From the NCBI GenBank assembly GCA_017656505.1, contig JACDNU010000010.1, positions 1-58,105 on the forward strand: DNA of 58,105 nucleotides, read 5' to 3'. Below are positions 39,327 to 57,913 of this stretch, piece after piece. The notes under the pieces are model-generated. The model ran no database searches, was not told the origin of the DNA, and saw nothing but the letters and a program-made list of their open reading frames with translations. The stretch's first letter is position 1. Each line of letters opens with the position of its first letter. This stretch comes from Archaeoglobus sp. GTDB taxonomy: Archaea > Halobacteriota > Archaeoglobi > Archaeoglobales > Archaeoglobaceae. A program made the translations under genes and the position numbers.

Positions 39327-40849
39327 GTTCCACCTTCCAAATACCTCACGGACGGAAATCTCTCCAAGATCATGCCGGTAATTTCGACTGCTGGTTCTTG
39401 TAGGGCGATGTCTATTGCATTCTCAAGCTTCCATTCCTTCTCTGCGTATATTGTGAGTATTTTGTCTCCTTCCTTGACAACTTCTCCCCTCTTCTTGTGG
39501 ATGTAGACTCCCGCTCCTTTGTCTTTTGGAGCTCCTGCTGCCCTTGCTATTTTTACGAGGGTTTTGTTGTACACTGCTTCAATCGCTCCCTCCTTCTTCG
39601 CCTCGAGGGTGTATGTTTTATCCCCAACGGGGACATCCTTATAGCTGAATATCTCTCCTCCTTGGGCTTCTATTATCTCCTTCATCTTCTCCATTGCCTT
39701 TCCGGAGGTGAAGATTTCCTTTGCATCTTCATAGCCATTCTTGCTTCTTCCTGCCATTTCTAGCAGAATTCCCGCTAGGCCCAGAGATTTTTCTATGAGG
39801 GAGGATGAACCCTTTCTCTTTTCAAGGGTTTCTAAGGCTTCTCTTGCTTCCAAGGCTGGGCCTATGGCTCTTCCTACTGGCTGACCTCCATACGAAAGAG
39901 CACAGAAAACGTTCAATCCAAGCCTCCTTCCAAGTTCGACGAAGTTGTTTGCAAGCTCCCTTCCCATGTCGACGCTTGGCACCTTGCTCCCCTCTCCAAC
40001 CGGGATGTCGATGACAACATGCTTCGCCCCCTCCGAAGCCTTCTTGGAGAGTAGGCTGGCGATCATATTCGGCTTTGGACTCATCTGCAGAATGTATTCA
40101 ACATGAATGAGCTGATCGTCAGCGGGAGCCAGCCTTGTCGCCCCACTCCAGGCGATGACTCCTCCCACTCTCTCCGTTATCTCCTTTATCTCGTCAACAG
40201 TCAGATTCACATTGGCAAGAACTTCAAAGGTGTCTGCTGTGCCTGTGGCTGAGGTTATGGCTCGTGAGGCTGTTTTCGGGATTAGCAAGCCGGATGCTGC
40301 TATTATTGGCACCACAAGCAAGGCAGTTTTGTTGCCCGGCACACCACCTATGCTGTGCTTGTCAACGACAGTCCCCCTTTCGAAGGTTATTCTTTCGCCG
40401 CTCTCAATCATGGCTTTCGTCATCCACTCGATTTCGTCGAAATCCATTTTCAGCATGTAGCTTGCAGAGACAAAGGCTGCAATCTCCACCTCGTTGAGGG
40501 AGCCTGAGGCTATATCGTTTATTATCTCGTAAACTTCCTCCTTGCTGAGCTTTCCACCCATAATCTTCTTCTTTATGTGCTCAAAGGATCTGGGTTTGGG
40601 AACAGGAGAAACCTCTGCCACTTCCCCCTCTTCCGCCTCCAGTTCCGGAAAGAGGAACCTGCTTATGGCACACTCCCCATTCTTCACCATCCCCGGAATT
40701 ATTCCAATCTCGGCAACTATGCTCTTTCTTCTGACCGAAATTTTTACCCTGTCACCGCTCAATATCCCGAGATCATTAGAGTCCTCCTCAGACAAAGCAA
40801 CAAAATGCTTCCTCACCTCAAAAGGAAGGGAAATCAGCTTAAGTTTCAT
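39323..40849 (-). CDS. deoA: AMP phosphorylase (DeoA-like), copy 1
   Basis: Archaeal AMP phosphorylase splits nucleoside monophosphates to ribose-1,5-bisphosphate and base, feeding the type III RuBisCO route of AMP use. The 508-residue protein has an N-terminal archaeal domain (residues 1-85), then the thymidine-phosphorylase-type core with KHSIGGVPGNKTALL, SRAITSATGTADT and EKRKGSSSLIEKS. GAGGATGATAGG precedes the ATG. From residue ~142 on it is nearly identical to copy 2, while the N-terminal parts are clearly different. It is coupled to gltA by a 4-base overlap. Confidence 0.88.
   Translation of the reverse strand: MKLKLISLPFEVRKHFVALSEEDSNDLGILSGDRVKISVRRKSIVAEIGIIPGMVKNGECAISRFLFPELEAEEGEVAEVSPVPKPRSFEHIKKKIMGGKLSKEEVYEIINDIASGSLNEVEIAAFVSASYMLKMDFDEIEWMTKAMIESGERITFERGTVVDKHSIGGVPGNKTALLVVPIIAASGLLIPKTASRAITSATGTADTFEVLANVNLTVDEIKEITERVGGVIAWSGATRLAPADDQLIHVEYILQMSPKPNMIASLLSKKASEGAKHVVIDIPVGEGSKVPSVDMGRELANNFVELGRRLGLNVFCALSYGGQPVGRAIGPALEAREALETLEKRKGSSSLIEKSLGLAGILLEMAGRSKNGYEDAKEIFTSGKAMEKMKEIIEAQGGEIFSYKDVPVGDKTYTLEAKKEGAIEAVYNKTLVKIARAAGAPKDKGAGVYIHKKRGEVVKEGDKILTIYAEKEWKLENAIDIALQEPAVEITGMILERFPSVRYLEGGT
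39381..40426 (-). repeat. 1,046-bp near-exact direct repeat, copy 1
   Basis: Matches 40952-41997 at a constant offset of 1,571 bases, and appears identical wherever I compared it, including silent sites. Single differences appear just outside both ends (for example A/G at 39380 and C/T at 40427). The borders fall inside the two AMP phosphorylase genes, as expected of gene conversion. Confidence 0.9.
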
Positions 40850-40899: not shown

Positions 40900-42414
40900 T
40901 CACACCTCAAAGTACCTCACGGACGGAAATCTCTCCAAGATTATGCCGGTGATTTCGACTGCTGGTTCTTGTAGGGCGATGTCTATTGCATTCTCAAGCT
41001 TCCATTCCTTCTCTGCGTATATTGTGAGTATTTTGTCTCCTTCCTTGACAACTTCTCCCCTCTTCTTGTGGATGTAGACTCCCGCTCCTTTGTCTTTTGG
41101 AGCTCCTGCTGCCCTTGCTATTTTTACGAGGGTTTTGTTGTACACTGCTTCAATCGCTCCCTCCTTCTTCGCCTCGAGGGTGTATGTTTTATCCCCAACG
41201 GGGACATCCTTATAGCTGAATATCTCTCCTCCTTGGGCTTCTATTATCTCCTTCATCTTCTCCATTGCCTTTCCGGAGGTGAAGATTTCCTTTGCATCTT
41301 CATAGCCATTCTTGCTTCTTCCTGCCATTTCTAGCAGAATTCCCGCTAGGCCCAGAGATTTTTCTATGAGGGAGGATGAACCCTTTCTCTTTTCAAGGGT
41401 TTCTAAGGCTTCTCTTGCTTCCAAGGCTGGGCCTATGGCTCTTCCTACTGGCTGACCTCCATACGAAAGAGCACAGAAAACGTTCAATCCAAGCCTCCTT
41501 CCAAGTTCGACGAAGTTGTTTGCAAGCTCCCTTCCCATGTCGACGCTTGGCACCTTGCTCCCCTCTCCAACCGGGATGTCGATGACAACATGCTTCGCCC
41601 CCTCCGAAGCCTTCTTGGAGAGTAGGCTGGCGATCATATTCGGCTTTGGACTCATCTGCAGAATGTATTCAACATGAATGAGCTGATCGTCAGCGGGAGC
41701 CAGCCTTGTCGCCCCACTCCAGGCGATGACTCCTCCCACTCTCTCCGTTATCTCCTTTATCTCGTCAACAGTCAGATTCACATTGGCAAGAACTTCAAAG
41801 GTGTCTGCTGTGCCTGTGGCTGAGGTTATGGCTCGTGAGGCTGTTTTCGGGATTAGCAAGCCGGATGCTGCTATTATTGGCACCACAAGCAAGGCAGTTT
41901 TGTTGCCCGGCACACCACCTATGCTGTGCTTGTCAACGACAGTCCCCCTTTCGAAGGTTATTCTTTCGCCGCTCTCAATCATGGCTTTCGTCATCCATTC
42001 TATCTCATCAAGATCCATTCCATGGATGAAATTGGAAAGAATCAAGGCTGCAAGCTCGATGTTGCTCAGGCTCTGAGCTGTAATATCAGAAATTATAGAA
42101 CGAATCTCTTCCTTCGAGAGCTTTTCCCCATCCATCTTTTTCTTGATAAACGTTACCGACTCGGGCCTAGGAATTGGAAAGACGTCAACCTCGTCTCCAT
42201 CTCTGACGGAAATCTCTTCTGCCAGATGAGATGGAAAGCCAACCTCCCCTTTCTTAACGAGACCTATGCTCGTTTGAAGCTCGGCCGTGCAAAATGCCTT
42301 CCCTTTACAAATCCTTATCCTGTCTCCCTCCATAAGGCCCAGCTCATCGGCATCGGATTTGTTAAGTATCACGGCTTTTCCAAGCTCAAAGGGGAGGACT
42401 CTGGCGATAACCAT
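40900..42414 (-). CDS. deoA: AMP phosphorylase (DeoA-like), copy 2
   Basis: The 504-residue paralogue has the same fold and core as copy 1, with which it shares 1,046 identical bases, but its first ~140 residues (MVIARVLPFELGKAVILNKS) differ at most positions. The ATG at 42414 matches the start of copy 1 in alignment and lies 25 bases after a TATA-like TTTAAA at about 42437-42442, so it is probably leaderless; an ATG 15 bases upstream falls too close to that TATA. Copy 1 begins 50 bases downstream. Confidence 0.87.
   Translation of the reverse strand: MVIARVLPFELGKAVILNKSDADELGLMEGDRIRICKGKAFCTAELQTSIGLVKKGEVGFPSHLAEEISVRDGDEVDVFPIPRPESVTFIKKKMDGEKLSKEEIRSIISDITAQSLSNIELAALILSNFIHGMDLDEIEWMTKAMIESGERITFERGTVVDKHSIGGVPGNKTALLVVPIIAASGLLIPKTASRAITSATGTADTFEVLANVNLTVDEIKEITERVGGVIAWSGATRLAPADDQLIHVEYILQMSPKPNMIASLLSKKASEGAKHVVIDIPVGEGSKVPSVDMGRELANNFVELGRRLGLNVFCALSYGGQPVGRAIGPALEAREALETLEKRKGSSSLIEKSLGLAGILLEMAGRSKNGYEDAKEIFTSGKAMEKMKEIIEAQGGEIFSYKDVPVGDKTYTLEAKKEGAIEAVYNKTLVKIARAAGAPKDKGAGVYIHKKRGEVVKEGDKILTIYAEKEWKLENAIDIALQEPAVEITGIILERFPSVRYFEV
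40952..41997 (-). repeat. 1,046-bp near-exact direct repeat, copy 2
   Basis: Second member of the repeat at 39381-40426, within AMP phosphorylase copy 2. A direct repeat of this size could delete or amplify by recombination, leaving a single fused gene. Confidence 0.9.
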
Positions 42415-42495
42415 GCTGGAGAATTGCATTCAGGATTTTTAAATCTTTTTGTATTTACGTATTCTACTTGAAAATACGTTCTATTTTAATGCATA

Positions 42496-45993: not shown

Positions 45994-48771
45994 TCAAACA
46001 GCGTAGAGAGCTGGTTTTCCAGGCATTGCAAGCTTCCTTTTCTCTTCAGGAACTTCGTCGCTTAATTCGAGCTTTACTCCCGTCTCTTTTGAAATGAATT
46101 CGATGTTCTCACGGATTATTCTTTCCTCATCGAGCAGTTTGAAACCATCCTTCAGAGCTTTTTTAACGAAGTTTGACACTTCCTTGCCCATTTTCCTAAA
46201 CCTTTCATCCTTCATTATCTCCTTCATCGCGCTCTTGAAGTCTCCTGCTTTAACCGCTAAGTTCAAAACCTCAAGCTTCCATGGCTCAGCCAGCGAAACG
46301 TAAACCTTCTTTGCATCTACAAATTTCAAAATCTCTTTTATGTCCGAGATAAGATCTTTTAAATACTCCTCCGCAGCTTCTGCCTCTTCATCAACCCTGC
46401 TCTCATCGTACTCCGGATATTTCTCAAGGCTCACAAAGCTTTCATGGCGGAGATGCCAAAGTTCCTCACATACATGGGGGATAAAAGGAGAGAGCAGCTT
46501 CAGCCAGTCATCGATGATCAGGCTGAGATTTTTGCCCCCTCTCCGGAGATACCACCTCACATCTGCCATCATCTCGAAAAAGGCTGAATTTACAGCTCTT
46601 CTCGTTTGCAAACTTTCCATAGCCTCGTTGGTCTCCTTTACAACCTTCTGAAATCTGCTCACCAGCCATCGATCGAGCATGCTCAAGTTTTCCCAGTCCT
46701 TAGACTCATAATTCTCTCTGACGAGTTCATAGAACCTTTTCAGGTGGGTTGCAAGGCTTTCCACATCCTTCCGCCTCCAGTCAGCATCGCTGTCATATTC
46801 AGCTGCATAGAGAATGTAGAGCCTCGTAACATCCGCTCCGTTTTCTTTTACAGCTCTCTTCATCGTCAGCAATGGTCCTTTGCTCTTCGACATCTTCTCC
46901 CCTTCCAAGCTCACGTAGCCGTTCACAGCTATCGCTCTCGGCCAGAATTCTTGATTAAAGATGGCTATGTGGTGGAAGAGGAAGAACAACAGGTGATTTG
47001 CAACCAGATCCTTCCCTGAACTCCTCAAATCGACGGGATACCAGTAGAGGAAATCCCGTCTTATTCTCTCAACGGTTTCCCTATCGAGAGATGTTTCGGG
47101 CTCACCTTCTCCCAAGAGCACGTAGCTAAGAAAGCTTTCAGTCATGTGCTCGGCTTTAAGCTTCCCTTCGTTGATGTACTTCGCTAAGATGTAATACGCC
47201 ATGTAAATTGTTGAGTCGGAAAGGCTCTCGATCAGCCATTCCTTGTCCCAAGGAATTCTCGTGCCCAGACCTTTCCTCCTGGCGCATGCCTTGTCCTTCA
47301 GCCATTCGATCTTGTTTCTGAACTCCTCCTTGTAGTAATCGGGGATTATTTGCATTCTTTCGAGGTGCTCCAAAACTTTGCCTTTCCATTCGGGATTCGA
47401 ATAGTTCAGGAACCACTGATCCTTAACGAGCTTGACAACGCACTTCGTTCCGCATCTGCAAACAACCGGCCTTTCGCTGAACTCGTAAAAGATATCGCCG
47501 ATTCCTTTCTCAATCAGATCTCTCTGTAGTCTATCCTTTATCTGCGAAACCTGCATTCCGCTGTATTCGCCCGTTACATCGAGCAGCACTCCCTTATGGA
47601 ACTCTTTCTTGTAGAGAAGTTTCGTTGCCCTTTCAAGAGCTGGATCGTTCTGGTCTTTTATATCCATCTCTTCCACGATGTTCTTTGCTGGAATTCCGCT
47701 CTCTCCAGCTGAAATTAAAACAATTGGCTGGATCTTTTCAAGGATTTCTTTCAGACCGTACTTTTCTGCCAGTTCGCTTTTTTTCAGATCCTCTATTGCC
47801 ACGTAGTCATAGGGCGCATGAGCTGGAACGCTCATAACTATTCCCGTCGCATTATCGGTATCGACAAATTCAGCCGGCAGAATGGGGATCTTTGTTTGCG
47901 TTACAGGATTAACCGCAAATCTGCCGAAAAGTTCCTCGGCATTAATTTCCCCTATTTCTTCAACCTCCTTGTCGGTATAGGTTAACTTCTCATACGCTTC
48001 CCTGCTAACGAGCCATTTTTCGCCATTAACCCTTGCAAGCACATACTTCGTGGGCTTAAGCCATATGTTCGTAACCCCGAACACCGTTTCAGGGCGAAGA
48101 GTTGCGCAGGGCAGGATTATCTTCTCGCCTTCTTCTTCGTAATAGAATTTTATAACGGTATAGTCGATTACCGTCGCGTTCTCGCCATGAAGCAGATCGT
48201 GATCCTCAACTGGATTTCGATCATGAGGACAGTATCTCACAGGATGCGAACCCTTAACAACGTATCCGAGCTTTTTAAGCCTGTAAAACTGCCACTCGAT
48301 GAATTTTTGGTAGGTTTCGTCTGTTGTCGTGAAAACCCTCCTCCAGTCAATTGAGTAACCTATACCCCTCATAGCCTCCAGAGCTTCCTTGGAGAAGTAC
48401 TCAACTATCTTTTCCGGTGTATCAAGAGTCAGTAAGACATCTTCTGGCACATCGTGAAACTTGCTGTAAACCTCCACCGTTTTGGGATCCCTCCGCTGAA
48501 TCAGCTCGGCAAGCCCGATGATTGGGGTACCTGTTACATGGAAGCCCATGGGGAAGAGAACGTTATACCCTCTCATCCTTTTGAATCTCGCAACGGCATC
48601 GCCTATCGTAAAGGTTCTCGTATGACCTGCATGCAGATTACCGTTAAGGTATGGATAGGGGATCGTTATGAAGAATTTGGGTTTTTCAGAGGGTTCGGGC
48701 TGAAAAATTCTTTCTTTTTCCCAGAGGCTCTGCCACTTCTTTTCGATCTCCCTGAAGTCGATTTCGACCAT
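45994..48771 (-). CDS. leuS: Leucyl-tRNA synthetase
   Basis: The 925-residue class I synthetase has the HIGH motif in PYPYLNGNLHAGHTRT (near residue 40), a CP1 editing domain with the archaeal layout, GEKMSKSKGPLLTMKRA (KMSKS) and an anticodon-binding helical end. Zinc-type cysteines occur in VCRCGTKCVV. The length and C-terminal extension are those of archaeal LeuRS. It starts at an ATG and is transcribed alone. Confidence 0.97.
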   Translation of the reverse strand: MVEIDFREIEKKWQSLWEKERIFQPEPSEKPKFFITIPYPYLNGNLHAGHTRTFTIGDAVARFKRMRGYNVLFPMGFHVTGTPIIGLAELIQRRDPKTVEVYSKFHDVPEDVLLTLDTPEKIVEYFSKEALEAMRGIGYSIDWRRVFTTTDETYQKFIEWQFYRLKKLGYVVKGSHPVRYCPHDRNPVEDHDLLHGENATVIDYTVIKFYYEEEGEKIILPCATLRPETVFGVTNIWLKPTKYVLARVNGEKWLVSREAYEKLTYTDKEVEEIGEINAEELFGRFAVNPVTQTKIPILPAEFVDTDNATGIVMSVPAHAPYDYVAIEDLKKSELAEKYGLKEILEKIQPIVLISAGESGIPAKNIVEEMDIKDQNDPALERATKLLYKKEFHKGVLLDVTGEYSGMQVSQIKDRLQRDLIEKGIGDIFYEFSERPVVCRCGTKCVVKLVKDQWFLNYSNPEWKGKVLEHLERMQIIPDYYKEEFRNKIEWLKDKACARRKGLGTRIPWDKEWLIESLSDSTIYMAYYILAKYINEGKLKAEHMTESFLSYVLLGEGEPETSLDRETVERIRRDFLYWYPVDLRSSGKDLVANHLLFFLFHHIAIFNQEFWPRAIAVNGYVSLEGEKMSKSKGPLLTMKRAVKENGADVTRLYILYAAEYDSDADWRRKDVESLATHLKRFYELVRENYESKDWENLSMLDRWLVSRFQKVVKETNEAMESLQTRRAVNSAFFEMMADVRWYLRRGGKNLSLIIDDWLKLLSPFIPHVCEELWHLRHESFVSLEKYPEYDESRVDEEAEAAEEYLKDLISDIKEILKFVDAKKVYVSLAEPWKLEVLNLAVKAGDFKSAMKEIMKDERFRKMGKEVSNFVKKALKDGFKLLDEERIIRENIEFISKETGVKLELSDEVPEEKRKLAMPGKPALYAV

Positions 48772-48930
48772 GCTATGAGGCTAGGCAGATTGCTTAAAAA
48801 TATTTTTGATGGACAATTCTGACTTACCCAAGGCGAATTTTGAGGTTTTTATCAATATAAATAATTTTCGGTACTAATTAACGAAATACTTAAATATTAG
48901 AAATTTGAATCAATTAAAAGTGATTTTCCG

Positions 48931-50214
48931 ATGGTCAAGCTTTTTGAGTACCAAGGAAAGGAAATTCTGAAAAAGGAAGGAATAAGGGTTCCTGAAGGAA
49001 GAGTTGTGTCAGATCTCAATGAGTTGATGAAAAGAGCGAAGGAGTTGAACTTTCCAATTGTCTTAAAGGCTCAAGTTCTAACGACAGGCAGACTCAAAGC
49101 TGGAGCGATAAGGTTTGCTCGGACCTTGAAAGAGGCTGAAGAGGTAGGAAAGGAGCTTTTCGGGAAGGAAATTAAGGGTTTAAGGGTTGAAAAAATTCTG
49201 TTGGAGGAAAAACTGGATTATGAGGAGGAATTTTATCTCAGCATAATCGTGAACGATTCTTACAAGGTGAAGGCTCCTGAAATCATTTTCAGCTTGATTG
49301 GCGGAGTCGATATTGAAAGTATTGCTGAAAAAAGCCCTGAGAAAATCGTGAGGCTCAAAGTTGATTACCTAAGACCATCTGAAGTTTTGGAAACGGAGTT
49401 CAGGGAGATGCTTGCAAATAAGCTTGCGAAACTCAGAGATGCTGACAAAATAGTGGAGTTTGTGAAAAAAGCGTACAGGGTTTTTGTTGACTGCGATGCT
49501 AGAGTGCTTGAAATAAATCCGATTTTTCTCTCAAAGGGAGATCTTATCGCTGGGGACTGCAAGATGACCATCGATGACTCATCCGTTTTCAGACATCCTG
49601 AATTCAGGTTGGATGTCCCGAGGGATATGGAAAGGTCAGCAACGGAGCTTGAGAAGATAGCTTGGAAAATAGAGGAGAATGATTACAGGGGAACGGCCTA
49701 TTTCATTCAGCTGAATGAATTTAACAAGCTTCAAAGCAAAGGTAAAGGCTACATAGCCTTTCACGGGATTGGAGGGGGGGCTTCGATGCTTGCTGCTGAT
49801 GCTTTGATCAAAAGCGGTCTTGTTCTTGCAAACTATGCGGATAGCAGTGGAAACCCCCCTGCAAGCAAGATTTACAGACTTATAAGGGTGATCATGGCGC
49901 AAGAAGGGATTGAAGGCTACGTAATGATGGGGGCTGTGTTTGCTTCCCAAGAGCAGTGGCATCATGCCCATGCTCTCGTGAAAGCGTTTAAGGAAATTGA
50001 GAGAGAAAACCCTGAAAAGATGAAAGGTTTCCCCGTTGTAATTCTTCTGGCGGGAAACAAAGAGAGAGAAAGTCATGAAATCCTTAGGAAAGAATTCGAG
50101 AAGATGAACTACAATTTTGAACTTTACGGCAGAGATTACATCTACAAACCAGAGTTCATTGCCGAAAGGGTTGTGGAGCTTGTTGGAAACTACAGGGGGC
50201 TTGGAAATGGTTGA
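48931..50214 (+). CDS. Succinyl-CoA-synthetase-beta-like ATP-grasp acyl-CoA ligase subunit
   Basis: First gene of the large plus-strand cluster. The 427-residue protein opens like SucC, MVKLFEYQGKEILKKEGI, with KAQVLTTGRLKAGAIRF (ATP-grasp) and RVLEINPIFLSKGDLIAGDCK (Mg/nucleotide residues). In the CoA-ligase half the usual NGAGLAMATMD reads HGIGGGASMLAADAL, unlike standard SucC. This suggests another acid, for example malate, citrate, itaconate or a methyl-branched diacid. An A/T-rich TATA (near 48889-48898) lies upstream. The start of the ferredoxin gene overlaps its end by 8 bases. Confidence 0.82.
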   Translation: MVKLFEYQGKEILKKEGIRVPEGRVVSDLNELMKRAKELNFPIVLKAQVLTTGRLKAGAIRFARTLKEAEEVGKELFGKEIKGLRVEKILLEEKLDYEEEFYLSIIVNDSYKVKAPEIIFSLIGGVDIESIAEKSPEKIVRLKVDYLRPSEVLETEFREMLANKLAKLRDADKIVEFVKKAYRVFVDCDARVLEINPIFLSKGDLIAGDCKMTIDDSSVFRHPEFRLDVPRDMERSATELEKIAWKIEENDYRGTAYFIQLNEFNKLQSKGKGYIAFHGIGGGASMLAADALIKSGLVLANYADSSGNPPASKIYRLIRVIMAQEGIEGYVMMGAVFASQEQWHHAHALVKAFKEIERENPEKMKGFPVVILLAGNKERESHEILRKEFEKMNYNFELYGRDYIYKPEFIAERVVELVGNYRGLGNG

Positions 50215-50491
50215 TACGGTTGATATGGTCGACGTGGTTGACTACGTTATCCCTATACGAACCGGCAAAATAGTCATCAACCACAAAAAATGCGAGGAAT
50301 GCGAGGTTTATGAATGTGCAAAGGCATGCTCCCTTTATGGAAGGAACATAATCCGGATTAAAAACGGAAAGCCTATAACCTTTCTGAGCGAGGAAGAAAT
50401 TCGAAGAAGGGATAACGAATGCCTTGCTTGCGAAATCCATTGTCCATATGATGCAGTTAAAATAATTCTGGATTTTCCGGAGTTGGATTAG
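50207..50491 (+). CDS. Seven-cysteine ferredoxin-like protein between the two CoA-ligase genes
   Basis: The 94-residue protein starts MVDTVDMVDVVDYV, a tandem repeat, then carries C29, C32, C37 and C41 (KCEECEVYECAKAC) and C72, C75, C79 followed by Pro (ECLACEIHCPYDAV). This fits one [4Fe-4S] cluster, perhaps two with unusual ligands. It overlaps the ligase beta gene by 8 bases and lies 9 bases before the alpha gene, so it is part of the coding plan. It may carry electrons to or from the flavoprotein encoded at 55226; this is inference. Confidence 0.85.
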   Translation: MVDTVDMVDVVDYVIPIRTGKIVINHKKCEECEVYECAKACSLYGRNIIRIKNGKPITFLSEEEIRRRDNECLACEIHCPYDAVKIILDFPELD

Positions 50492-50500
50492 GGTGGTATA

Positions 50501-51394
50501 ATGGCATTTCTGATCGATGAGAGGACGTCAGTCATTATACAGGGGATAACTGGCAGAGAGGGAAGTGCTAGGGCAAGATTCATGCTGGAGTATGGGACGA
50601 AAGTTATTGCAGGGGTAACACCTGGGAGAGGAGGACAGGATGTCTGGGGGATTCCCGTTTATGACAGCGTTAAGGAGGTAATCGAGGAGTTTGGAGAGAT
50701 AGATGCCAGCGTTACTTTTGTTCCGGGACCACAACTCAAGGATGCAGCTCTGGAAGCGATTGAAGCTGGCATCAAGAAGATATTCATGCCGGTGGAGAGA
50801 GTTCCACTCCATGACATCCTTACAATAATCGCGTCAGCAAACGCAGCCAAAGATTCCATCCTCGTCGGCCCCGGATCGCTCGGCGTTATAAGCCCGGGGA
50901 AGGCTGTTGCCGGATGGCTTGGGGGGAGCGATGAGGCTGCAAGAGAAGCTTTCAAACCTGGATGCGTCGCAGTTCTGTCGAGGAGCGGTGGACAGACCGC
51001 AACGATTTCATGGGCTCTCTCGTCTGCGGGAATTGGGGTTTCGACCGCTGTTCATGTTGGAACGGAGCCCGTACTTGGTACAACGCTTGCAGAATACCTT
51101 TCGATGTGCGAGGAGGATAGAGAAACGAAGGCCATCGTAATTTTCGGAGAGATAGGTGGGGTTGCGGAGGAGGAGGCAGCCGAAGTCATCAAAGAGTACG
51201 GAATTGAGAAGCCGATCGTCGCATATATAGCCGGATCATCTCTGCCTTCGGGAATAAGGTTCTCCCATGCCAGTGCAATAGTTGAAGGCGGGAAGGGAAC
51301 ATTTGAAAGCAAAAGGAGAGCTCTTGAAAGAGCTGGAGTTTATGTTGTGGAGAGGCCTATTGAAATCGTTGAAAAGGTAAAGGAGGTTCTTTAA
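50501..51394 (+). CDS. Succinyl-CoA-synthetase-alpha-like acyl-CoA ligase subunit
   Basis: The 297-residue SucD-like protein has GITGREGSARARFMLEYGT (CoA-binding Rossmann start), VGPGSLGVISPGKAVAGW, and the phosphohistidine loop RFSHASAIVEGGKGT (His256). All catalytic parts of the alpha subunit are kept, so with the beta protein it should form an ADP-forming acyl-CoA synthetase. The substrate is not known; the neighbouring CitE-like lyase suggests malate, citramalate, itaconate or a relative. GGTGGTATA precedes the ATG. Confidence 0.88.
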   Translation: MAFLIDERTSVIIQGITGREGSARARFMLEYGTKVIAGVTPGRGGQDVWGIPVYDSVKEVIEEFGEIDASVTFVPGPQLKDAALEAIEAGIKKIFMPVERVPLHDILTIIASANAAKDSILVGPGSLGVISPGKAVAGWLGGSDEAAREAFKPGCVAVLSRSGGQTATISWALSSAGIGVSTAVHVGTEPVLGTTLAEYLSMCEEDRETKAIVIFGEIGGVAEEEAAEVIKEYGIEKPIVAYIAGSSLPSGIRFSHASAIVEGGKGTFESKRRALERAGVYVVERPIEIVEKVKEVL

Positions 51395-51405
51395 GAGGGA
51401 TAAAC

Positions 51406-52308
51406 ATGCTCCTGAGAAGCTGTCTTTTTGTTCCCGGCAATAATTATCGGGCAATCCTGAAAACTGAGAAGCTCGAGTTTGATGCTGCGATATTCGATCT
51501 AGAAGATGCGGTACCGATTGAAGACAAGGAAACGGCCAGAATTTTTGTCAGAGATGCCATTGAAAAGCTAAAGTTCGATGGAAGGCTCAAGATCGTGAGA
51601 GTAAACGGCTGGGAAACGGGAATGCTTGAGGAAGATCTAGAATTTATTTTCAGGGGGACTTCAGAAGGCTTAGATGGAACTTTGGACGGAATAATGCTAC
51701 CGAAAACGGAGAGTGCTGCTGATGTTTTAAAGTTGGAGAGGTTGATTGATAAGTTTAAACGAGGAAAAGAGAAAGTCAAACCCTTCATCATAGCACTCAT
51801 CGAATCGGCAAAAGGGGTTATAAAGGCTGAGGAGATAGCTGAATGCAAGAGCGTGGCAGCGATTGCTTTTGGTGCCTTAGATTACTATAGAACCCTTGGG
51901 AGGAGTTATTTTAAATTCTCTCCTGAACAGACGGAGCTTCTCTTCGCCAGATCAAAGATCGTGAATTCGGCAAAAGCATATGGAAAGAAAGCTCTGGACT
52001 CGCCTTTTTTTGGATTGATAATCGATAGAGAAGGTCTTCTTAAGGAAGCAAAGCTTGCTTGGCAGCTTGGCTTTGATGGGAAGCTTGTCATTCATCCAAA
52101 TCATGTTCCCATAGTAAATGAGGTCTTTTCCCCCTCTGAGGAAGACGTTAAGCTCGCTCAAGAGATCGTGGCAGAGTTTGAGAAAGAAGGAAAGCCAACA
52201 ACCGTCGGAGGGAGAATGATAGATTATGCGAGCTACGTTCAGGCGAAGGAGGTTATTAGCATTTACGAAGAAGTGAAGCGAAGGGGGAAGGGGAAGGAGG
52301 AAGGATAA
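51406..52308 (+). CDS. CitE/HpcH-family aldolase (malyl- or citramalyl-CoA lyase type)
   Basis: The 300-residue TIM-barrel enzyme has SCLFVPGNN, FDAAIFDLEDAVPIEDKETAR (Mg-binding Glu/Asp), GIMLPKTES, IALIESAKGV and LVIHPNHVPIVNEVF, the family's signatures. Such proteins cleave malyl-, methylmalyl-, citramalyl- or citryl-CoA. A preceding ADP-forming CoA ligase fits a malate-CoA ligase plus malyl-CoA lyase pair, or itaconate/citramalate use. It is not likely to be a citrate lyase subunit, as the alpha and acyl-carrier subunits are absent. The next gene overlaps its stop by one base. Confidence 0.85.
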   Translation: MLLRSCLFVPGNNYRAILKTEKLEFDAAIFDLEDAVPIEDKETARIFVRDAIEKLKFDGRLKIVRVNGWETGMLEEDLEFIFRGTSEGLDGTLDGIMLPKTESAADVLKLERLIDKFKRGKEKVKPFIIALIESAKGVIKAEEIAECKSVAAIAFGALDYYRTLGRSYFKFSPEQTELLFARSKIVNSAKAYGKKALDSPFFGLIIDREGLLKEAKLAWQLGFDGKLVIHPNHVPIVNEVFSPSEEDVKLAQEIVAEFEKEGKPTTVGGRMIDYASYVQAKEVISIYEEVKRRGKGKEEG

Positions 52309-53687
52309 TGAGTGGGATGGAAACTTATAAGGAAACTGATAAATCGATTACTGAAGCTTTTGTCGACCACATAATGAAAATGAAATTCTCCAAGCTTCCG
52401 GAGACGGTTGTTGAGAAGTGCAAGATCCTCTTCCTCGACTTCCTCGGAATTCCCTTCAAGGCTGCCGAGCTGGACTCCAGCAAAATCTTGATGAGATCCA
52501 TAGCAAAAGAAAAGGGAAAAAGCACGGTCCTCGGATTCGGAGTAAAAACAACCCGGAGGAATGCCGCTCTGATAAACGGAACCCTCGCCCATTCTTTGGA
52601 CTTCGATGATACCCATAGAGAATCTTCGATTCACCCTGGAGCGAGTATAATTCCTTTGCTACTCGCTTTCGAGCCAGATGGAAAATCTTTCATTGAAGCG
52701 ATGGTTGTTGGCTATGACGTTGCTTGCAGGTTGGGAATGGCGATAAATCCGGCCGAGCATTACGCGAGGGGATTTCATGGAACCGCAACATGCGGCCTTT
52801 TCGGCTGCATTGCTGCGGGGAGCAAGATTCTAGAGTTTGGAGCGGAAAAAATCGAAAATGCTTTCGGGATCGCTTTAAGCATGGCCGCTGGATCGATGCA
52901 ATTTCTCGAAAATGGTTCATGGAACAAGAGATTGCATCCCGGCTTGGCGGCCCATAATGCTATTCTCGCTTTAAATCTTGCCGAAAATGGGTTTATCGGG
53001 GCTGCAAAACCCTTTGAAGGAAAGTATGGTTTCCTCAATTCCTACTCCGCCAAACCCCAGCCTGGGAAAGCCCTAGAGATCGGAAAAAGATATGAAGTTC
53101 TCTTCACTGGAATAAAGCCGTATCCATGCTGTAGGTACATTCATCCAGCAGTAGATCTTATCCTTCAGAATCCTCTCGATCCTGAGGAGATATTGAACGT
53201 AGAGAACGTAGAGGTTAAACTAACCTCGGCGGGCTACAAGATAGTTGGTGAACCGCTAGAAAAGAAACAGAATCCAAAGAATGTTGTGGATGCGCAATTC
53301 AGCATGCCCTTTGCATTGGCTACTTCGCTTTTAAAAGGGAAACTTACGGTTTCCGAGTTCACCGAGGAAGTTATTCGGGATGAAAAGGTGAGGAGGCTTA
53401 TGAAAGAGATCGAAGTTATACCGAGTGAAGAGCTGGACAGAGAATACCCTGAAAAATGGCCGGTTATCGTTAAGATTAAAACAAAAGAGGATGAAACAGC
53501 TGAAATTGTTCTAAGAAAGGATTATCCGAGCGGTGAACCTGAGGATCCCTTGAACTTCGATCAGGTGGCAGAGAAATTCAAGAGTTTGGTCGGTGATAAA
53601 ATTGATGTTGATGCAGCTTTAAGTTTTATTAAAAAGCTTGAAAAGAGAGAGATTTCAGAGCTTTTTGAGGTTTTAAGGATGTTTTAA
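52308..53687 (+). CDS. MmgE/PrpD family protein
   Basis: The 459-residue protein has CKILFLDFLGIPFKAA, the substrate-binding block NGTLAHSLDFDDTHRESSIHPGA (near residue 88), GYDVACRLGMAINPAEHYARGFHGTAT, and KPYPCCRYIHPAVD. The family holds 2-methylcitrate dehydratase, cis-aconitate decarboxylase and iminodisuccinate epimerase; none can be chosen by sequence alone. A 2-methylcitrate or cis-aconitate role would tie it to the CoA ligase and lyase. AAGGAGGAAGGATA precedes the ATG. The stop is 26 bases before the next gene. Confidence 0.9.
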   Translation: MSGMETYKETDKSITEAFVDHIMKMKFSKLPETVVEKCKILFLDFLGIPFKAAELDSSKILMRSIAKEKGKSTVLGFGVKTTRRNAALINGTLAHSLDFDDTHRESSIHPGASIIPLLLAFEPDGKSFIEAMVVGYDVACRLGMAINPAEHYARGFHGTATCGLFGCIAAGSKILEFGAEKIENAFGIALSMAAGSMQFLENGSWNKRLHPGLAAHNAILALNLAENGFIGAAKPFEGKYGFLNSYSAKPQPGKALEIGKRYEVLFTGIKPYPCCRYIHPAVDLILQNPLDPEEILNVENVEVKLTSAGYKIVGEPLEKKQNPKNVVDAQFSMPFALATSLLKGKLTVSEFTEEVIRDEKVRRLMKEIEVIPSEELDREYPEKWPVIVKIKTKEDETAEIVLRKDYPSGEPEDPLNFDQVAEKFKSLVGDKIDVDAALSFIKKLEKREISELFEVLRMF

Positions 53688-53713
53688 GTTTATGTTTGTG
53701 AAGGGGGTAAAAC

Positions 53714-54379
53714 ATGCAGATTGATTGTGCGAGCTGCAAGGCCTTTGCATGCTATTTCAGAGGTAAAATCCCAGAAAACTGTCCAATGAATGATGAAGAA
53801 ATCCAGAGGATATATCGGGCATCCCTTGAGAAGTACAGAGAGGATGAAAAAATAAGGAATCTCGCCTTGAATGCTGCGAGGGTTGAAGGAGAGGGCTATC
53901 TGAAGTGGACGAGAATCGAGGAGACGATGGAATTTGCGAGGAGATGCGGGTTTAAAAAGCTTGGCATTGCATTCTGCATCGGCATGAGAAATGAGGCAAA
54001 AGCTCTGGCAGACGTTTTAAGGCACAACGGTTTTGAGGTTTTTTCCGTTTTGTGTAAGAGCGGTTCCATACCGAAAGAGGAGATAGGTCTGAAAAAGGAG
54101 GAGAAGATAAAACCAGACAGATTTGAGGCGATGTGCAATCCAATAGCTCAGGCTGAGATTCTGAATAAAGCAGGGACGGAGCTCAACTTAATTCTAGGCT
54201 TATGTGTGGGACATGACACGCTTTTCATAATGCATTCGAGAGCTCCTGTAACATGTATAGCAGTCAAAGACAGAGTTCTCGCCCATAACCCCCTTGGAGC
54301 ACTCTATGCCAAGCATTATTTCAGAAAAAGGCTCTACGAAGACCATTTGGAGTCGAGGCGAGATGACAGATACGGATAA
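53714..54379 (+). CDS. DUF1847 metal-binding-type protein
   Basis: The 221-residue protein starts MQIDCASCKAFACYFRGKIPENCP with four or five cysteines likely to bind metal, and later has AFCIGMRNEAKALADVL, AMCNPIAQAEILNKAGTELNLILGLCVGHDTLFIMHS and TCIAVKDRVLAHNP, typical of DUF1847. Its function is unknown. It is in the middle of the acid-pathway cluster and overlaps the next gene by 17 bases, so it is co-expressed. The conserved Cys and His suggest a redox or metal role. Confidence 0.88.
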   Translation: MQIDCASCKAFACYFRGKIPENCPMNDEEIQRIYRASLEKYREDEKIRNLALNAARVEGEGYLKWTRIEETMEFARRCGFKKLGIAFCIGMRNEAKALADVLRHNGFEVFSVLCKSGSIPKEEIGLKKEEKIKPDRFEAMCNPIAQAEILNKAGTELNLILGLCVGHDTLFIMHSRAPVTCIAVKDRVLAHNPLGALYAKHYFRKRLYEDHLESRRDDRYG

Positions 54380-55220
54380 GACAGAGAAAAATAGAATACA
54401 GGTAACTCTAACTCCGGCAGAATCAAAAAAGTTGATATCTCTGGCTTTACTGGAAAAGGAGAATTTTAAAAACGCCTTAAGAGGTGGAACAATCGTAATC
54501 CACCCTAGCAGCACCACTTACTTCCTGTACGAGTTACTGGCGGGAAAAAGTCCTGAAGTTTGGGTATGTGGGGTTATAGTTCCGGAGGGAACATGCATAA
54601 ATGAAGCAATGCTTCCAGAAATCTCCGAAATATCCAAATTCAGCCAGTTTTGGGTTTTCAGAAAAGGAAAGCTCGTTGAATCGCCCCCTGTGGATTCACT
54701 TGTTGAAGAGCTTGACGAAGGAGATATATACGTTAAAGCTGCAAACGCGGTCGATAACGAGGGAAATGCGGGTGTCCTCATCGGCGCTCCGGATGCGAAG
54801 GGGACAGCTGGCAGATTCATGGAATCGAAGAGGAATTTTGACACAATAATTCCGGTCGGTCTTGAGAAACTGATCCCCTCTGTCGAAGAAGCCACAAAAG
54901 CTAATCCTAAAAAGCTTAAATACTCGATGGGGATGCCAGTTTATTTCAGAAAGCTTGAAGGAGAGGTTGTAACTGAGATTGAAGCATTTAGAATACTCTT
55001 TAATTCAAAAGCCTATCCACTAGCCTGTGGGGGACTTTCTGGGGCCGAAGGGAGCGTTACGCTTGTTGTGGAGTCTGAAAGAGCTGAGAAAATTGAGGAA
55101 ATCAAAGATTTCGTTCTAGGGATAAAAGGAGCTGCAATTCCTCCACTTAAAACTCCAGAATGTCCTTGCAGCTGGAAAACCTGCTCCCTCTATGATGCCA
55201 AACTGATACTGAGAAGGTGA
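54363..55220 (+). CDS. Unrecognised protein in the acid-pathway cluster
   Basis: The 285-residue protein has no family I recognise. It starts MTDTDKTEKNRIQVTLTPAE, with hydrophobic strands and glycines in GGTIVIHPSSTTYFLYELL, VWVCGVIVPEGTCINEAML, VLIGAPDAKGTAGRFM and TIIPVGLEKLIPS. A cysteine cluster ends it (CPCSWKTCSLYDAK). The alternating fold reads as an alpha/beta enzyme. The start at 54363 is within the DUF1847 gene (17-base overlap); an upstream frame from 54294 would overlap further without a ribosome-binding site. Neighbours suggest a step of the same pathway. Confidence 0.8.
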   Translation: MTDTDKTEKNRIQVTLTPAESKKLISLALLEKENFKNALRGGTIVIHPSSTTYFLYELLAGKSPEVWVCGVIVPEGTCINEAMLPEISEISKFSQFWVFRKGKLVESPPVDSLVEELDEGDIYVKAANAVDNEGNAGVLIGAPDAKGTAGRFMESKRNFDTIIPVGLEKLIPSVEEATKANPKKLKYSMGMPVYFRKLEGEVVTEIEAFRILFNSKAYPLACGGLSGAEGSVTLVVESERAEKIEEIKDFVLGIKGAAIPPLKTPECPCSWKTCSLYDAKLILRR

Positions 55221-55225
55221 GCAAG

Positions 55226-56929
55226 ATGGAGAAAATCCAACACGACGTTGCAATCATTGGAACAGGGATTGCCGGCATGAGGGCTGCGATCGCTGCTGCT
55301 GAGAAAAGTGATAAGATCTCAATTGCTCTGATCTCGAAAACCTATCCGATAAGATGTCACAGCGTTTGTGCGGAGGGAGGGATAAACGTAGCTTTGAGAG
55401 AGGAAGACAGTTTCGAATCCCATGCGTGGGACACCGTTAAGGGTTCTGATTTTCTCGCAGATCAAGATGCCGTTGAATTTTTTGTTAAAGAGATTCCAAA
55501 AGAAATCTTGAGGCTCGACAACTGGGGGTGTCCGTGGAGCAGAACCGAGGATGGAAAAATAGCTCAGAGAATTCTAGGGGGGCATGCGGTAAACAGAACT
55601 GTTTTTGCTGCCGACAGAACTGGCTTTCACATAGTTCATACACTGTATGAAAGAAGCCTAAGATATCCGAGTATCCAGAAGTACAACGAGTTTTTCGTAA
55701 CCAGTTTGATCGTTGAGGATAAAGAAATCAGAGGGCTGACAGCAATAGATCTCAAAAATGGAGAGCTGGTTGTATTCGAAACCAAGGCAATCATTTTAGC
55801 AACTGGCGGGGCTGGAAGGCTGTACGGTTTCACATCGTGTAGCCACATCGTTACTGGAGATGGTATGGCCCTAGCATACACAGCTGGAGCGCCGCTAAAG
55901 GATATGGAGTTCATTCAGTTCCATCCTACCGGCCTTGTGCCTGCTGGAGGAATCCTGATTTCCGAGGCCTGCAGAGGAGAGGGCGGCTATTTGAAAAACA
56001 AGTTTGGCGAGAGATTCATGTCGAGATATGCTCCTGACAGAATGGAACTCGCCCCACGAGACATAGTTTCAAGGGCCATAGTAAGGGAAATCCTAGAAGG
56101 AAGGAGTTTTGAAGGCGAGCATGGCCCTTATGTGCTGCTCGATCTAACCCATCTCGGCGAAGAAAAGATAAACGAGAGATTACCCCTCATAAGGGAAGCA
56201 TCAATAAAATTCGCAGGGATAGATCCAGTTAACGAGCCTATTCCAGTTCGTCCGACCGTTCATTACACGATGGGAGGCGTTCATGCAAGCTTTACCGAAA
56301 CACCCATTAAGGGCCTTTTTGTTGCTGGAGAGGTTGCATGCCTGAGCATTCATGGGGCAAACAGACTGGGTGGAAACGCTTTGGCCGAATGTTTGGTTTT
56401 CGGAAAGGTTTCTGGCGAGAAAGCAGCTGAATACGTGCTGGGGAAAATGAGGAAAGAGTGGCATGTAAACAGGGAAACATATGAAAAGGAAGAGAAAAGT
56501 CTATCCGATTTACTTGGCAAGGAAGGGGATGAAAGTCCCTATGAGATAAAGAAGGAGCTTAATGCCGCTATGGAGAGATATTTTGGCGTCTTCAGGAATG
56601 AGGATGACATGAAAGAGGGTGTCAGAAGAATTAGGAGGTTAAAAGAAAGGTACCAAAACATCTCAATAGATGATAAATCTAATGCATTCAACACCGATCT
56701 GATTTTTACGATTGAAGTTGGTTACATGCTCGATTTAGCGGAGATAGTTGCAATAGGGGCTTTGAACAGGAAGGAGTCGAGAGGAGCCCACTATCGTCTT
56801 GACTATCCGAAGAGGGATGACGTTAACTGGTTGAAACACACGCTTGCTTACTACACGAAGGAGGGGCCAAGGTTCGATCACACTCCAATTACGATAACGA
56901 AGTGGAAGCCAGTGGAGAGGAAATATTAG
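55226..56929 (+). CDS. Fumarate-reductase/succinate-dehydrogenase-type flavoprotein
   Basis: The 567-residue protein has the FAD motif IIGTGIAGMRAAI, IRCHSVCAEGG with His45 at the position of covalent FAD attachment, GGHAVNRTVFAADRTG, MEFIQFHPTGL, and HYTMGGVHAS and GEVACLSIHGANRLGG, all as in SdhA/FrdA. No iron-sulfur or membrane subunit is nearby, so it may use the ferredoxin of the same cluster, or act on another diacid such as methylsuccinate. I start it at the ATG at 55226 after AAGGTGA; a GTG nine bases before is inside that site. Confidence 0.9.
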   Translation: MEKIQHDVAIIGTGIAGMRAAIAAAEKSDKISIALISKTYPIRCHSVCAEGGINVALREEDSFESHAWDTVKGSDFLADQDAVEFFVKEIPKEILRLDNWGCPWSRTEDGKIAQRILGGHAVNRTVFAADRTGFHIVHTLYERSLRYPSIQKYNEFFVTSLIVEDKEIRGLTAIDLKNGELVVFETKAIILATGGAGRLYGFTSCSHIVTGDGMALAYTAGAPLKDMEFIQFHPTGLVPAGGILISEACRGEGGYLKNKFGERFMSRYAPDRMELAPRDIVSRAIVREILEGRSFEGEHGPYVLLDLTHLGEEKINERLPLIREASIKFAGIDPVNEPIPVRPTVHYTMGGVHASFTETPIKGLFVAGEVACLSIHGANRLGGNALAECLVFGKVSGEKAAEYVLGKMRKEWHVNRETYEKEEKSLSDLLGKEGDESPYEIKKELNAAMERYFGVFRNEDDMKEGVRRIRRLKERYQNISIDDKSNAFNTDLIFTIEVGYMLDLAEIVAIGALNRKESRGAHYRLDYPKRDDVNWLKHTLAYYTKEGPRFDHTPITITKWKPVERKY

Positions 56930-56941
56930 TTAGGTGATGTT

Positions 56942-57913
56942 ATGAACGATACGGTTTATTTAGAAATTCTAAGAGTGATTTCTGAGGCGAGAATGGGTTT
57001 GAGGGTAAATAAAATAGAGAAGATGCTGAAGGAGAGAGGTCTAAAACTTAGCGAGAAAACCATCAGAAACAGACTGGAAAAGCTCTTGAAAGATGGATTT
57101 TTAGAAAAGGATAATGCTAGCTGGTTATTAACCGAAAAAGGAAGAGAAGTTCTGACCACGAAAATGGTTTTTGAAAGGCTTGGAGAGTTTTCCGAGACAG
57201 TTGAGTACAATCTCCTCCGCTCCACCTTCAATCTTTACACGATGGAAGGAACAGTTCCTACCAGTTTCGCGATAATTGACAAAGACAAATTTGAAAAAGC
57301 AATGGAAATACTTGCTTTGGTTCTAAACTCTGAAGTTTCTGCAACGAACCTCGTTGCAGTGTTCGATGAAGGCGAAATTGCTGATTCCATCGTGGTCGAA
57401 AACGGGAAAGTTGCCCTAGGAACGATTTCAAGTACCATATACGATATAATCATGCTCAACATAGGGGTTGTTCTGAAAGTTGAGTATGCAGGATTGCTGA
57501 AATATGTTGGGTCAAAGCCCTACGGGTTAGTTGAGCTAATTAACTACAGCGGCACGACAATCAGTCCGGGACTGCTCCTAGTGAGAGCGGGTTATACCTC
57601 TGTTTTCAACGTTGTAAAGAGCGGTGACGGATTCGTTGTTACGGCTATAAGGAGCTTCAACCCCCATGCTCTAGAGGAGGTTAGGAATGAAGTCATTCTC
57701 GCCGATTCGAGAGGGATAGGAAAAGTTATAGCCATATCCCCTCCGATGGCTGACATCTTCGGAATTCCAACAGGTAGAAGAGCGATGATGATGTTTCAAG
57801 CTGGAATTAACCAGCTATCACCGCTTTACGAATTAAGCCTCGATCCTGAGCTTAAAATCAATCAAGCTCTTATTGATTTTAAAATATTCAAGAGAGTAGA
57901 TAAACTCATCTAG
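56942..57913 (+). CDS. NrpR-like winged-helix regulator with DUF128 domain
   Basis: The 323-residue protein has an N-terminal winged helix (residues 5-70; EKMLKERGLKLSEKTIRNRLEKLLKDG) and one NrpR regulatory domain of the DUF128 type (about 85-320; ATNLVAVFDEGE, VELINYSGTTISPGLLLVRAG, GKVIAISPPMADIFGIPTGRRA). NrpR represses nitrogen genes in methanogens and senses 2-oxoglutarate. This relative closes the acid-pathway cluster, 12 bases after the flavoprotein gene, so it may sense a related diacid and control the cluster; that is inference. Confidence 0.85.
   Translation: MNDTVYLEILRVISEARMGLRVNKIEKMLKERGLKLSEKTIRNRLEKLLKDGFLEKDNASWLLTEKGREVLTTKMVFERLGEFSETVEYNLLRSTFNLYTMEGTVPTSFAIIDKDKFEKAMEILALVLNSEVSATNLVAVFDEGEIADSIVVENGKVALGTISSTIYDIIMLNIGVVLKVEYAGLLKYVGSKPYGLVELINYSGTTISPGLLLVRAGYTSVFNVVKSGDGFVVTAIRSFNPHALEEVRNEVILADSRGIGKVIAISPPMADIFGIPTGRRAMMMFQAGINQLSPLYELSLDPELKINQALIDFKIFKRVDKLI

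Follow-up and report, generated by a model that had tools for sequence, protein, structure and literature searches.

Organisation of the cluster

The window examined here is the whole stretch of 58,105 nucleotides that forms contig C10 of an Archaeoglobaceae genome (G000; 2.52 Mb, 95 contigs). Nine open reading frames (ORFs) occupy positions 48931-57913 of its plus strand; neighbouring frames overlap at four junctions and are otherwise no more than 26 bp apart. The gene leuS (45994-48771, minus strand) lies upstream and is divergent. We describe this locus as a conserved, family-restricted cluster for dicarboxylic acid (diacid) metabolism, built around an unusual three-part acyl-coenzyme A (acyl-CoA) ligase, and tentatively propose a branched C5 diacid as its substrate. 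The features, in the order sucC-like, ferredoxin-like (fd), sucD-like, citE, mmgE/prpD, duf1847, a gene without known family, frdA and nrpR, are as follows.

48865..48886, plus strand: candidate operator, dyad TTTTCG-N11-CGAAA, kept with its flanks (about 43 bp) in G003 and G004
48887..48900, plus strand: TATA-like element ACTTAAATATTA, about 30-40 bp before the sucC start; putative promoter element
48931..50214, plus strand: SucC-like, beta-type ligase subunit with a citrate-binding-type C-terminal domain (Pfam, NCBIfam, tree)
50207..50491, plus strand: ferredoxin-like protein, predicted small subunit of the ligase (fused to the SucC-like C-terminus in bacteria; in archaea its own gene between sucC and sucD)
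50501..51394, plus strand: SucD-like, alpha-type ligase subunit with the phospho-histidine motif SHASAI
51406..52308, plus strand: CitE/HpcH-family acyl-CoA lyase (Pfam, NCBIfam, tree)
52308..53687, plus strand: member of the MmgE/PrpD family and probable 2-substituted-succinate isomerase (Pfam, tree, residues)
53714..54379, plus strand: cysteine-rich DUF1847 protein (Pfam)
54363..55220, plus strand: protein without known family, with a weak hint of a CoA-transferase/RpiA-type fold that hhalign does not support
55217..56929, plus strand: flavoprotein of the FrdA/SdhA type, encoded without an FrdB; its substrate-binding TE motif has Ser for Thr
56942..57913, plus strand: NrpR-domain winged-helix regulator (Pfam), the last gene in G005 too

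From 5' to 3', sucC and fd overlap by 8 bp, gaps of 9 and 11 bp separate fd from sucD and sucD from citE, and citE and mmgE overlap by 1 bp; mmgE is followed after 26 bp by duf1847, which overlaps the seventh gene by 17 bp, and the latter overlaps frdA by 4 bp, with nrpR beginning 12 bp further on. The fd start was set at ATG 50207 (TTG 50117 upstream is a possible alternative) and that of the seventh gene at ATG 54363 (TTG 54294 is also open). Pfam matches were obtained for ATP-grasp_2, CoA_binding/Ligase_CoA, HpcH_HpaI, the N- and C-terminal MmgE_PrpD domains, DUF1847, FAD_binding_2/Succ_DH_flav_C and NRD1_2 (NrpR). An initial annotation, made from the sequence letters, had reported nine same-strand genes in this order with gaps of at most 26 bases; every ORF and junction was confirmed, and Pfam and NCBIfam agreed with its family names.

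The cluster is conserved within the Archaeoglobaceae

All nine genes recur in G005 (L010) in the same order and on one strand, complete through nrpR. Such a recurrence is more than chance. Besides G005, four Archaeoglobaceae genomes keep the order over the stretch that their contigs cover, with identities of 54-94%. Eight genes were found in order in G003 (L009), in G013 (L011) and in an Archaeoglobi metagenome-assembled genome (L032), where the contig reaches frdA. At the G003 locus a contig end cuts frdA, and an nrpR orthologue (72%) stands at the start of another contig; in G013 nrpR lies 1.6 kb further on, on the opposite strand. In G004 (L028) the contig ends after gene four. The ligase clade described below was present in 6 of the 393 genomes of the phylum, all six within the Archaeoglobaceae, and two genomes of the same genus (G001 and G002) lacked this clade as well as MmgE/PrpD and DUF1847. 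The gene-order comparison thus bears out the earlier suggestion of one conserved unit.

A three-part acyl-CoA ligase

The SucC-like protein did not reach the cut-offs for succinyl-CoA synthetase (SCS; 207 bits versus 370 for PRK00696, 202 versus 375.6 for TIGR01016) or that of the Mtk equivalog (145 versus 604). Its C-terminus matched the citrate-binding domain PF16114 (37.5 bits, cut-off 26.8), at a position where the true SucC of the same genome, encoded beside SucD and SdhA (L030), has the normal CoA-ligase domain PF00549. In a maximum-likelihood tree the SucC-like proteins of the clusters, their paralogues and bacterial relatives formed one clade (support 99/97), and SCS and MtkA fell in a separate one (100/99), MtkA pairing with bacterial SCS. 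CcsA of H. thermophilus lay on the cluster ligase's side of the tree, on a long branch (length 1.7). The bacterial relatives were collected with two peptide patterns, so that members were surely missed; solved-protein sequences in this tree and in those of the lyase and MmgE were taken from HMMER alignments. In the SucD-like protein the phospho-histidine motif is present: its SHASAI aligns with the GHAGAI seen in the alpha chains of SCS structures. Judged from these sequences, the ligase is neither a succinyl-CoA synthetase nor a malate-CoA ligase and constitutes its own clade. Its proposed resemblance to malate-CoA ligase was therefore not upheld, and the grouping with plain succinyl-CoA synthetase that the initial annotation had named as grounds for abandoning its proposal was not seen in the tree.

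The ferredoxin-like protein scored below every Fer4 cut-off in the profile search; its cysteines are present. In Anaerolineae and Acidobacteria the corresponding domain is fused to the SucC C-terminus (ORFs of 504-535 aa and one longer), and ECLACE is kept in most rows of the alignment, the first cysteine group being lost in Acidobacteria. Fusion in one lineage, together with a gene that always stands between sucC and sucD in the others, argues that this protein belongs to the ligase, which the initial annotation had not recognised; we regard this as the firmest new point of the analysis. A literature search found no description of a ferredoxin-bearing SucCD-like ligase.

Two known systems are comparable. 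Citryl-CoA synthetase/ATP-citrate lyase likewise has a SucCD-type ligase with a citrate-binding-type domain, and bacterial relatives of the cluster ligase are paired with citryl-CoA lyase; the cluster ligase differs in its well-separated clade, its ferredoxin-like part and its CitE-family lyase partner. MtkAB with malyl-CoA lyase (Mcl) also combines an ADP-forming ligase with an adjoining CitE-superfamily lyase, but both cluster enzymes belong to other clades. The ligase would thus be a concrete new enzyme type, SucCD-like with a ferredoxin-like part, occurring in archaea and several bacterial groups and paired with either of two unrelated lyases.

The lyase partner

The CitE protein matched PF03328 (CitE/HpcH family) at 165 bits, and its best solved relative was human CLYBL, a citramalyl-CoA lyase. 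In the lyase tree the window protein, its orthologues and one paralogue grouped together (99/97), apart from Mcl; CLYBL and RipC sat on long branches, and their placement is unsure. The acyl-CoA cleavage proposed initially is in keeping with the relationship to CLYBL, and the likeness to malyl-CoA lyase has to be given up.

CitE adjoins the ligase in the branch comprising archaea, Deltaproteobacteria and L038. No CitE match was found in the Anaerolineae and Acidobacteria genomes searched. At L040, L042 and L043 a citrate-synthase-fold protein is encoded beside the ligase or within about 9 kb; two such proteins were tested, and both exceeded citryl-CoA-lyase subfamily cut-offs. Either partner would suit a ligase whose acyl-CoA product is destined for carbon-carbon cleavage. 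The initial proposal is partly supported: a conserved diacid unit with an acyl-CoA ligase and a CitE-type lyase acting on a small diacid stands, the Mtk/Mcl comparison does not.

Sister clusters and the MmgE/PrpD protein

The initial annotation had also missed paralogous clusters with class I fumarase. A second cluster is present in the window's own genome (contig C51, L026) and in G003 (C36, L027). It comprises sucC-like, ferredoxin-like and sucD-like genes, citE, class I fumarase alpha and beta, DUF6282, two CoA-transferase subunits and frdA. TRAP transporter genes lie upstream of the cluster, and class I fumarase takes the place of MmgE/PrpD. A third version was recovered in G004, where the ends of two contigs, both within frdA, share an identical stretch of 123 bp; joined, they carry sucC-like (5' part missing), ferredoxin-like, sucD-like, citE, fumA, fumB, frdA, frdB, mmgE and cupin genes, the MmgE being 56% identical to that of the window. 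Comparison of these clusters shows a constant core of ligase and lyase, an FrdA-type oxidoreductase that is always there, and a variable hydratase/isomerase part. We had also considered MmgE as a hydratase in the place of fumarase; this idea is weakened, since the G004 cluster has fumarase and MmgE/PrpD together.

The window MmgE protein has the domains PF03972/PF19305. In a proteobacterial itaconate cluster an MmgE/PrpD protein is the (S)-(R)-methylsuccinate isomerase (PMC12290011). In our tree, which was built without biochemically characterised isomerase sequences, the window protein grouped with archaeal homologues and with cluster proteins of Shinella and Caballeronia (97/94), apart from acidobacterial PrpD-like proteins, mouse Irg1, IDS epimerase and B. 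subtilis MmgE. The Shinella protein is encoded with CaiB, CitE, ACAD and MaoC, and the Caballeronia protein with MaoC, MFS, ACAD, CaiB and CitE (families read by eye from ORFs). The window protein keeps His95, Asp98, His109, His157 and two lysines, the family's carboxylate-binding residues in the alignment, and its WNKR is an instance of the W-[NT]-K-R motif common to the Shinella/Caballeronia group. On this basis the protein is probably a 2-substituted-succinate isomerase. Its assignment to a diacid pathway is thus strengthened by its grouping with methylsuccinate/itaconate-cluster proteins, and two functions that the initial annotation had named within this family, cis-aconitate decarboxylase and 2-methylcitrate dehydratase, are disfavoured by the tree and by scores of 19-35 bits against PrpD cut-offs of 458-950.

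Further loci with MmgE/PrpD genes were seen in the family. The cluster L107 (G023, contig C51) encodes large and small subunits of the aconitase family, a TfrB-like FrdB, FrdA, a PrpB-type lyase and a TAXI-TRAP transporter, together with two MmgE/PrpD genes; it may serve another branched diacid such as dimethylmalate. At L109 (G004, C127) a TRAP transporter and an MmgE/PrpD gene 77% identical to the window's are encoded divergently from methylmalonyl-CoA-mutase-type large and small subunits.

A diverged flavoprotein and class I fumarase

The window FrdA is full-length, meets the flavoprotein subfamily PRK06069 (919.5, cut-off 826) and shares about 72% identity with the SdhA of the SucCD locus; it is an SdhA duplicate. 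In the SdhA/FrdA family the TE motif binds the substrate. All five readable cluster FrdAs (window, G003, G005, G013 and L032) have SE instead, and all readable non-cluster homologues but one have Thr; the exception is the G015 SdhA at L064, which has Ser in this motif (ILISEAARGEG). The initial annotation had invoked an FrdA acting on the diacid, and a cluster-specific FrdA, marked by the shared SE, was indeed found. The Thr-to-Ser change may accommodate a methyl group. In the sister FrdAs of contig C51 (L026:14435-16129) and of C36, from two genomes, the active-site HPTG is replaced by FPVG, which suggests a substrate other than succinate. By both changes the cluster and sister flavoproteins have diverged from plain succinate dehydrogenase, from which the window FrdA differs also in that FrdB, FrdC and FrdD are absent from its cluster.

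These data bear on a C4 route, in which FrdA would form fumarate from succinate, fumarase malate and the ligase malyl-CoA, which CitE would cleave to acetyl-CoA and glyoxylate, a serine-cycle-type chemistry carried out by unrelated subfamilies. It would employ the same enzyme classes, and the class I fumarase of the sister clusters and the recent origin of FrdA from SdhA speak for it. We nevertheless judge it unlikely: the ligase lies outside the MtkA clade and the lyase outside the Mcl clade, succinate is already served by the normal SucCD-SdhA locus, an isomerase is useless with unsubstituted succinate, the cluster has no glyoxylate-handling gene, and the substrate-site residue of FrdA is altered.

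A branched C5 diacid instead would suit the fumarases, class I enzymes being known mesaconases (PMC4682846). In a check of ten genomes, a fumarase gene outside the clusters was found in all but G004, which is 80% complete.

Another 2-substituted succinate (ethylsuccinate, 2,3-dimethylsuccinate or a hydroxylated C5 acid), or a general operon for several such acids, would agree with the modular way in which Archaeoglobaceae clusters mix MmgE/PrpD, FrdAB, hydratase and lyase (e.g. the PrpB-type lyase in G023), and the FPVG of the G000 sister FrdA implies that substrates probably differ between clusters. As the cluster has no specific marker for these acids, and a C5 substrate covers the same facts with characterised enzymes, we regard this explanation as improbable.

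A proposed anaerobic route for a branched C5 diacid

We propose that the cluster encodes an ATP-dependent, anaerobic route for a branched C5 dicarboxylate, methylsuccinate or citramalate, an assignment to which we give slightly less than an even chance. MmgE/PrpD would interconvert (S)- and (R)-methylsuccinate, and the FrdA variant would oxidise methylsuccinate to mesaconate, with SdhB-type partners or menaquinone as electron acceptors. Mesaconate would be hydrated to (S)-citramalate by a class I fumarase, encoded outside the window cluster and inside the sister clusters. The three-part ligase would convert this, with ATP and CoA and via the phospho-histidine, to (S)-citramalyl-CoA, and the CitE-type lyase would cleave the product to acetyl-CoA and pyruvate, which enter central metabolism. 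DUF1847 and the seventh gene product would be accessory. The TRAP transporter beside one sister cluster counts in favour of this proposal.

Several observations weigh against this proposal. The lyase scored 160.8, far below the RipC equivalog cut-off of 375, and did not group with RipC/Ccl. Tyr152 of MmgE aligns with the catalytic Tyr of two-base isomerases (HYLAGWH in IDS epimerase) and is absent in the Caballeronia reference. FrdB is not encoded with the window FrdA, which is followed by nrpR, and appears only in the sister cluster L108. No hydratase is among the genes of the window cluster, so mesaconate hydration would have to come from elsewhere or from an unassigned gene. Two further points, the citrate-binding-type domain of the ligase and E. 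coli CitE as the nearest, though distant, outgroup of the lyase (84/83), would fit citrate too.

They are in line with a tricarboxylate route. In it an FrdA-like enzyme would oxidise tricarballylate or a similar acid, MmgE/PrpD would act as aconitase/2-methylcitrate dehydratase, the ligase would be of the citryl-CoA synthetase type, and CitE would be a citryl-CoA lyase yielding acetyl-CoA and oxaloacetate. The position of CcsA in the ligase tree, on its long branch, and the bacterial ligase relatives that adjoin citryl-CoA lyase and PrpD-like or aconitase genes point the same way. Such a route appears quite unlikely, however, given that the sister clusters contain class I fumarase and not aconitase, that the window MmgE stands well apart from the PrpD-like proteins of Acidobacteria and scores far under the PrpD cut-offs, and that FrdA resembles SdhA.

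The C5 route would resemble in its working the proteobacterial itaconate/methylsuccinate cluster of Pseudomonas, Cupriavidus and Paraburkholderia (Ict, Ich, Ccl, Mcd and Msi; PMC12290011), which also combines a CitE-type lyase, MmgE/PrpD, an activating enzyme and a flavin dehydrogenase to yield acetyl-CoA and pyruvate. The activating enzyme there is a CoA transferase, whereas the archaeal cluster has the ADP-forming three-part ligase; an SDH-type flavoprotein stands in place of the acyl-CoA dehydrogenase; and oxidation and hydration would take place on free acids in the archaea rather than on CoA esters. The archaeal cluster lacks the MaoC hydratase and has DUF1847 and the seventh gene in addition. 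As judged by ORFs and Pfam, none of CoA transferase, acyl-CoA dehydrogenase and MaoC hydratase is encoded in the window cluster; with three of five defining genes absent, it is not a member of the proteobacterial pathway type.

Branched C5 diacids such as itaconate, methylsuccinate and citramalate are of importance for immunity and in the gut and soil. According to PMC12290011, no organism is known to ferment itaconate, and methylsuccinate isomerases are almost confined to Pseudomonadota. If our proposal is true, hyperthermophilic archaea would have a comparable route with different chemistry. The fuller picture, a wholly anaerobic free-acid methylsuccinate/mesaconate/citramalate route in sulfate-reducing archaea, with an undescribed three-part ligase (its small part fused to the beta subunit in bacteria) and new steps added by DUF1847 and the seventh gene product, seems to us possible but rather doubtful.

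DUF1847 and the seventh gene product

DUF1847 has about ten invariant cysteines. In G019 (L123, contig C36) it lies near FumAB, FrdAB, a LarAH5-type nickel-dependent malate racemase, genes of the galactarate/altronate-dehydratase and Ldh2 families, and transporters; in G023, DUF1847 and the seventh gene product adjoin a TRAP transporter, an acyl-CoA dehydrogenase and an MmgE/PrpD gene. From these neighbourhoods, the two proteins often accompany diacid metabolism in Archaeoglobaceae. Relatives of both occur also in unrelated settings in other archaea. The seventh gene product had no Pfam or NCBIfam match, PDB profile searches gave nothing credible for either protein, and DUF1847 was named in none of the papers searched. 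The AF2 model of DUF1847 was not used (mean pLDDT 51.6). Foldseek matched the seventh gene product most highly, in many cases, to the CoA-transferase/RpiA fold (best E = 0.0098), but hhalign against the CoA transferases of the sister cluster gave less than 1% probability, and a function as CoA transferase was rejected. Both proteins are absent from the fumarase-bearing sister clusters, and a role as substitute hydratase was considered; it is weakened by the occurrence of DUF1847 beside FumAB in G019.

Regulation

The dyad TTTTCG-N11-CGAAA (TTTTCGGTACTAATTAACGAAA) immediately precedes the TATA-like element of sucC. A segment of about 43 bp that contains the dyad is near-identical in three genomes (window, G003 and G004), the remaining upstream region being unalignable, and each of the six upstream regions compared has an A+T-rich TTAAAT core at the TATA-like position. 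In the 2.5 Mb genome TTTTCGGTACTAATTAACGAAA had no other match at up to 3 mismatches, and the reversed control had 0. As the bare dyad pattern is not rare in the window, the case for an operator rests on conservation. The NrpR-like protein would repress its own operon through this dyad over the promoter; the conserved footprint fits such autoregulation, in line with the self-control by the last gene that was first suggested.

Elsewhere in the window, tandem AMP/thymidine-phosphorylase-type genes (39323-40849 and 40900-42429, minus strand) share 1118 bp at 99.0% identity, including an identical run of 1046 bp, yet their 5' quarters differ, which reflects either recent gene conversion or an assembly effect.

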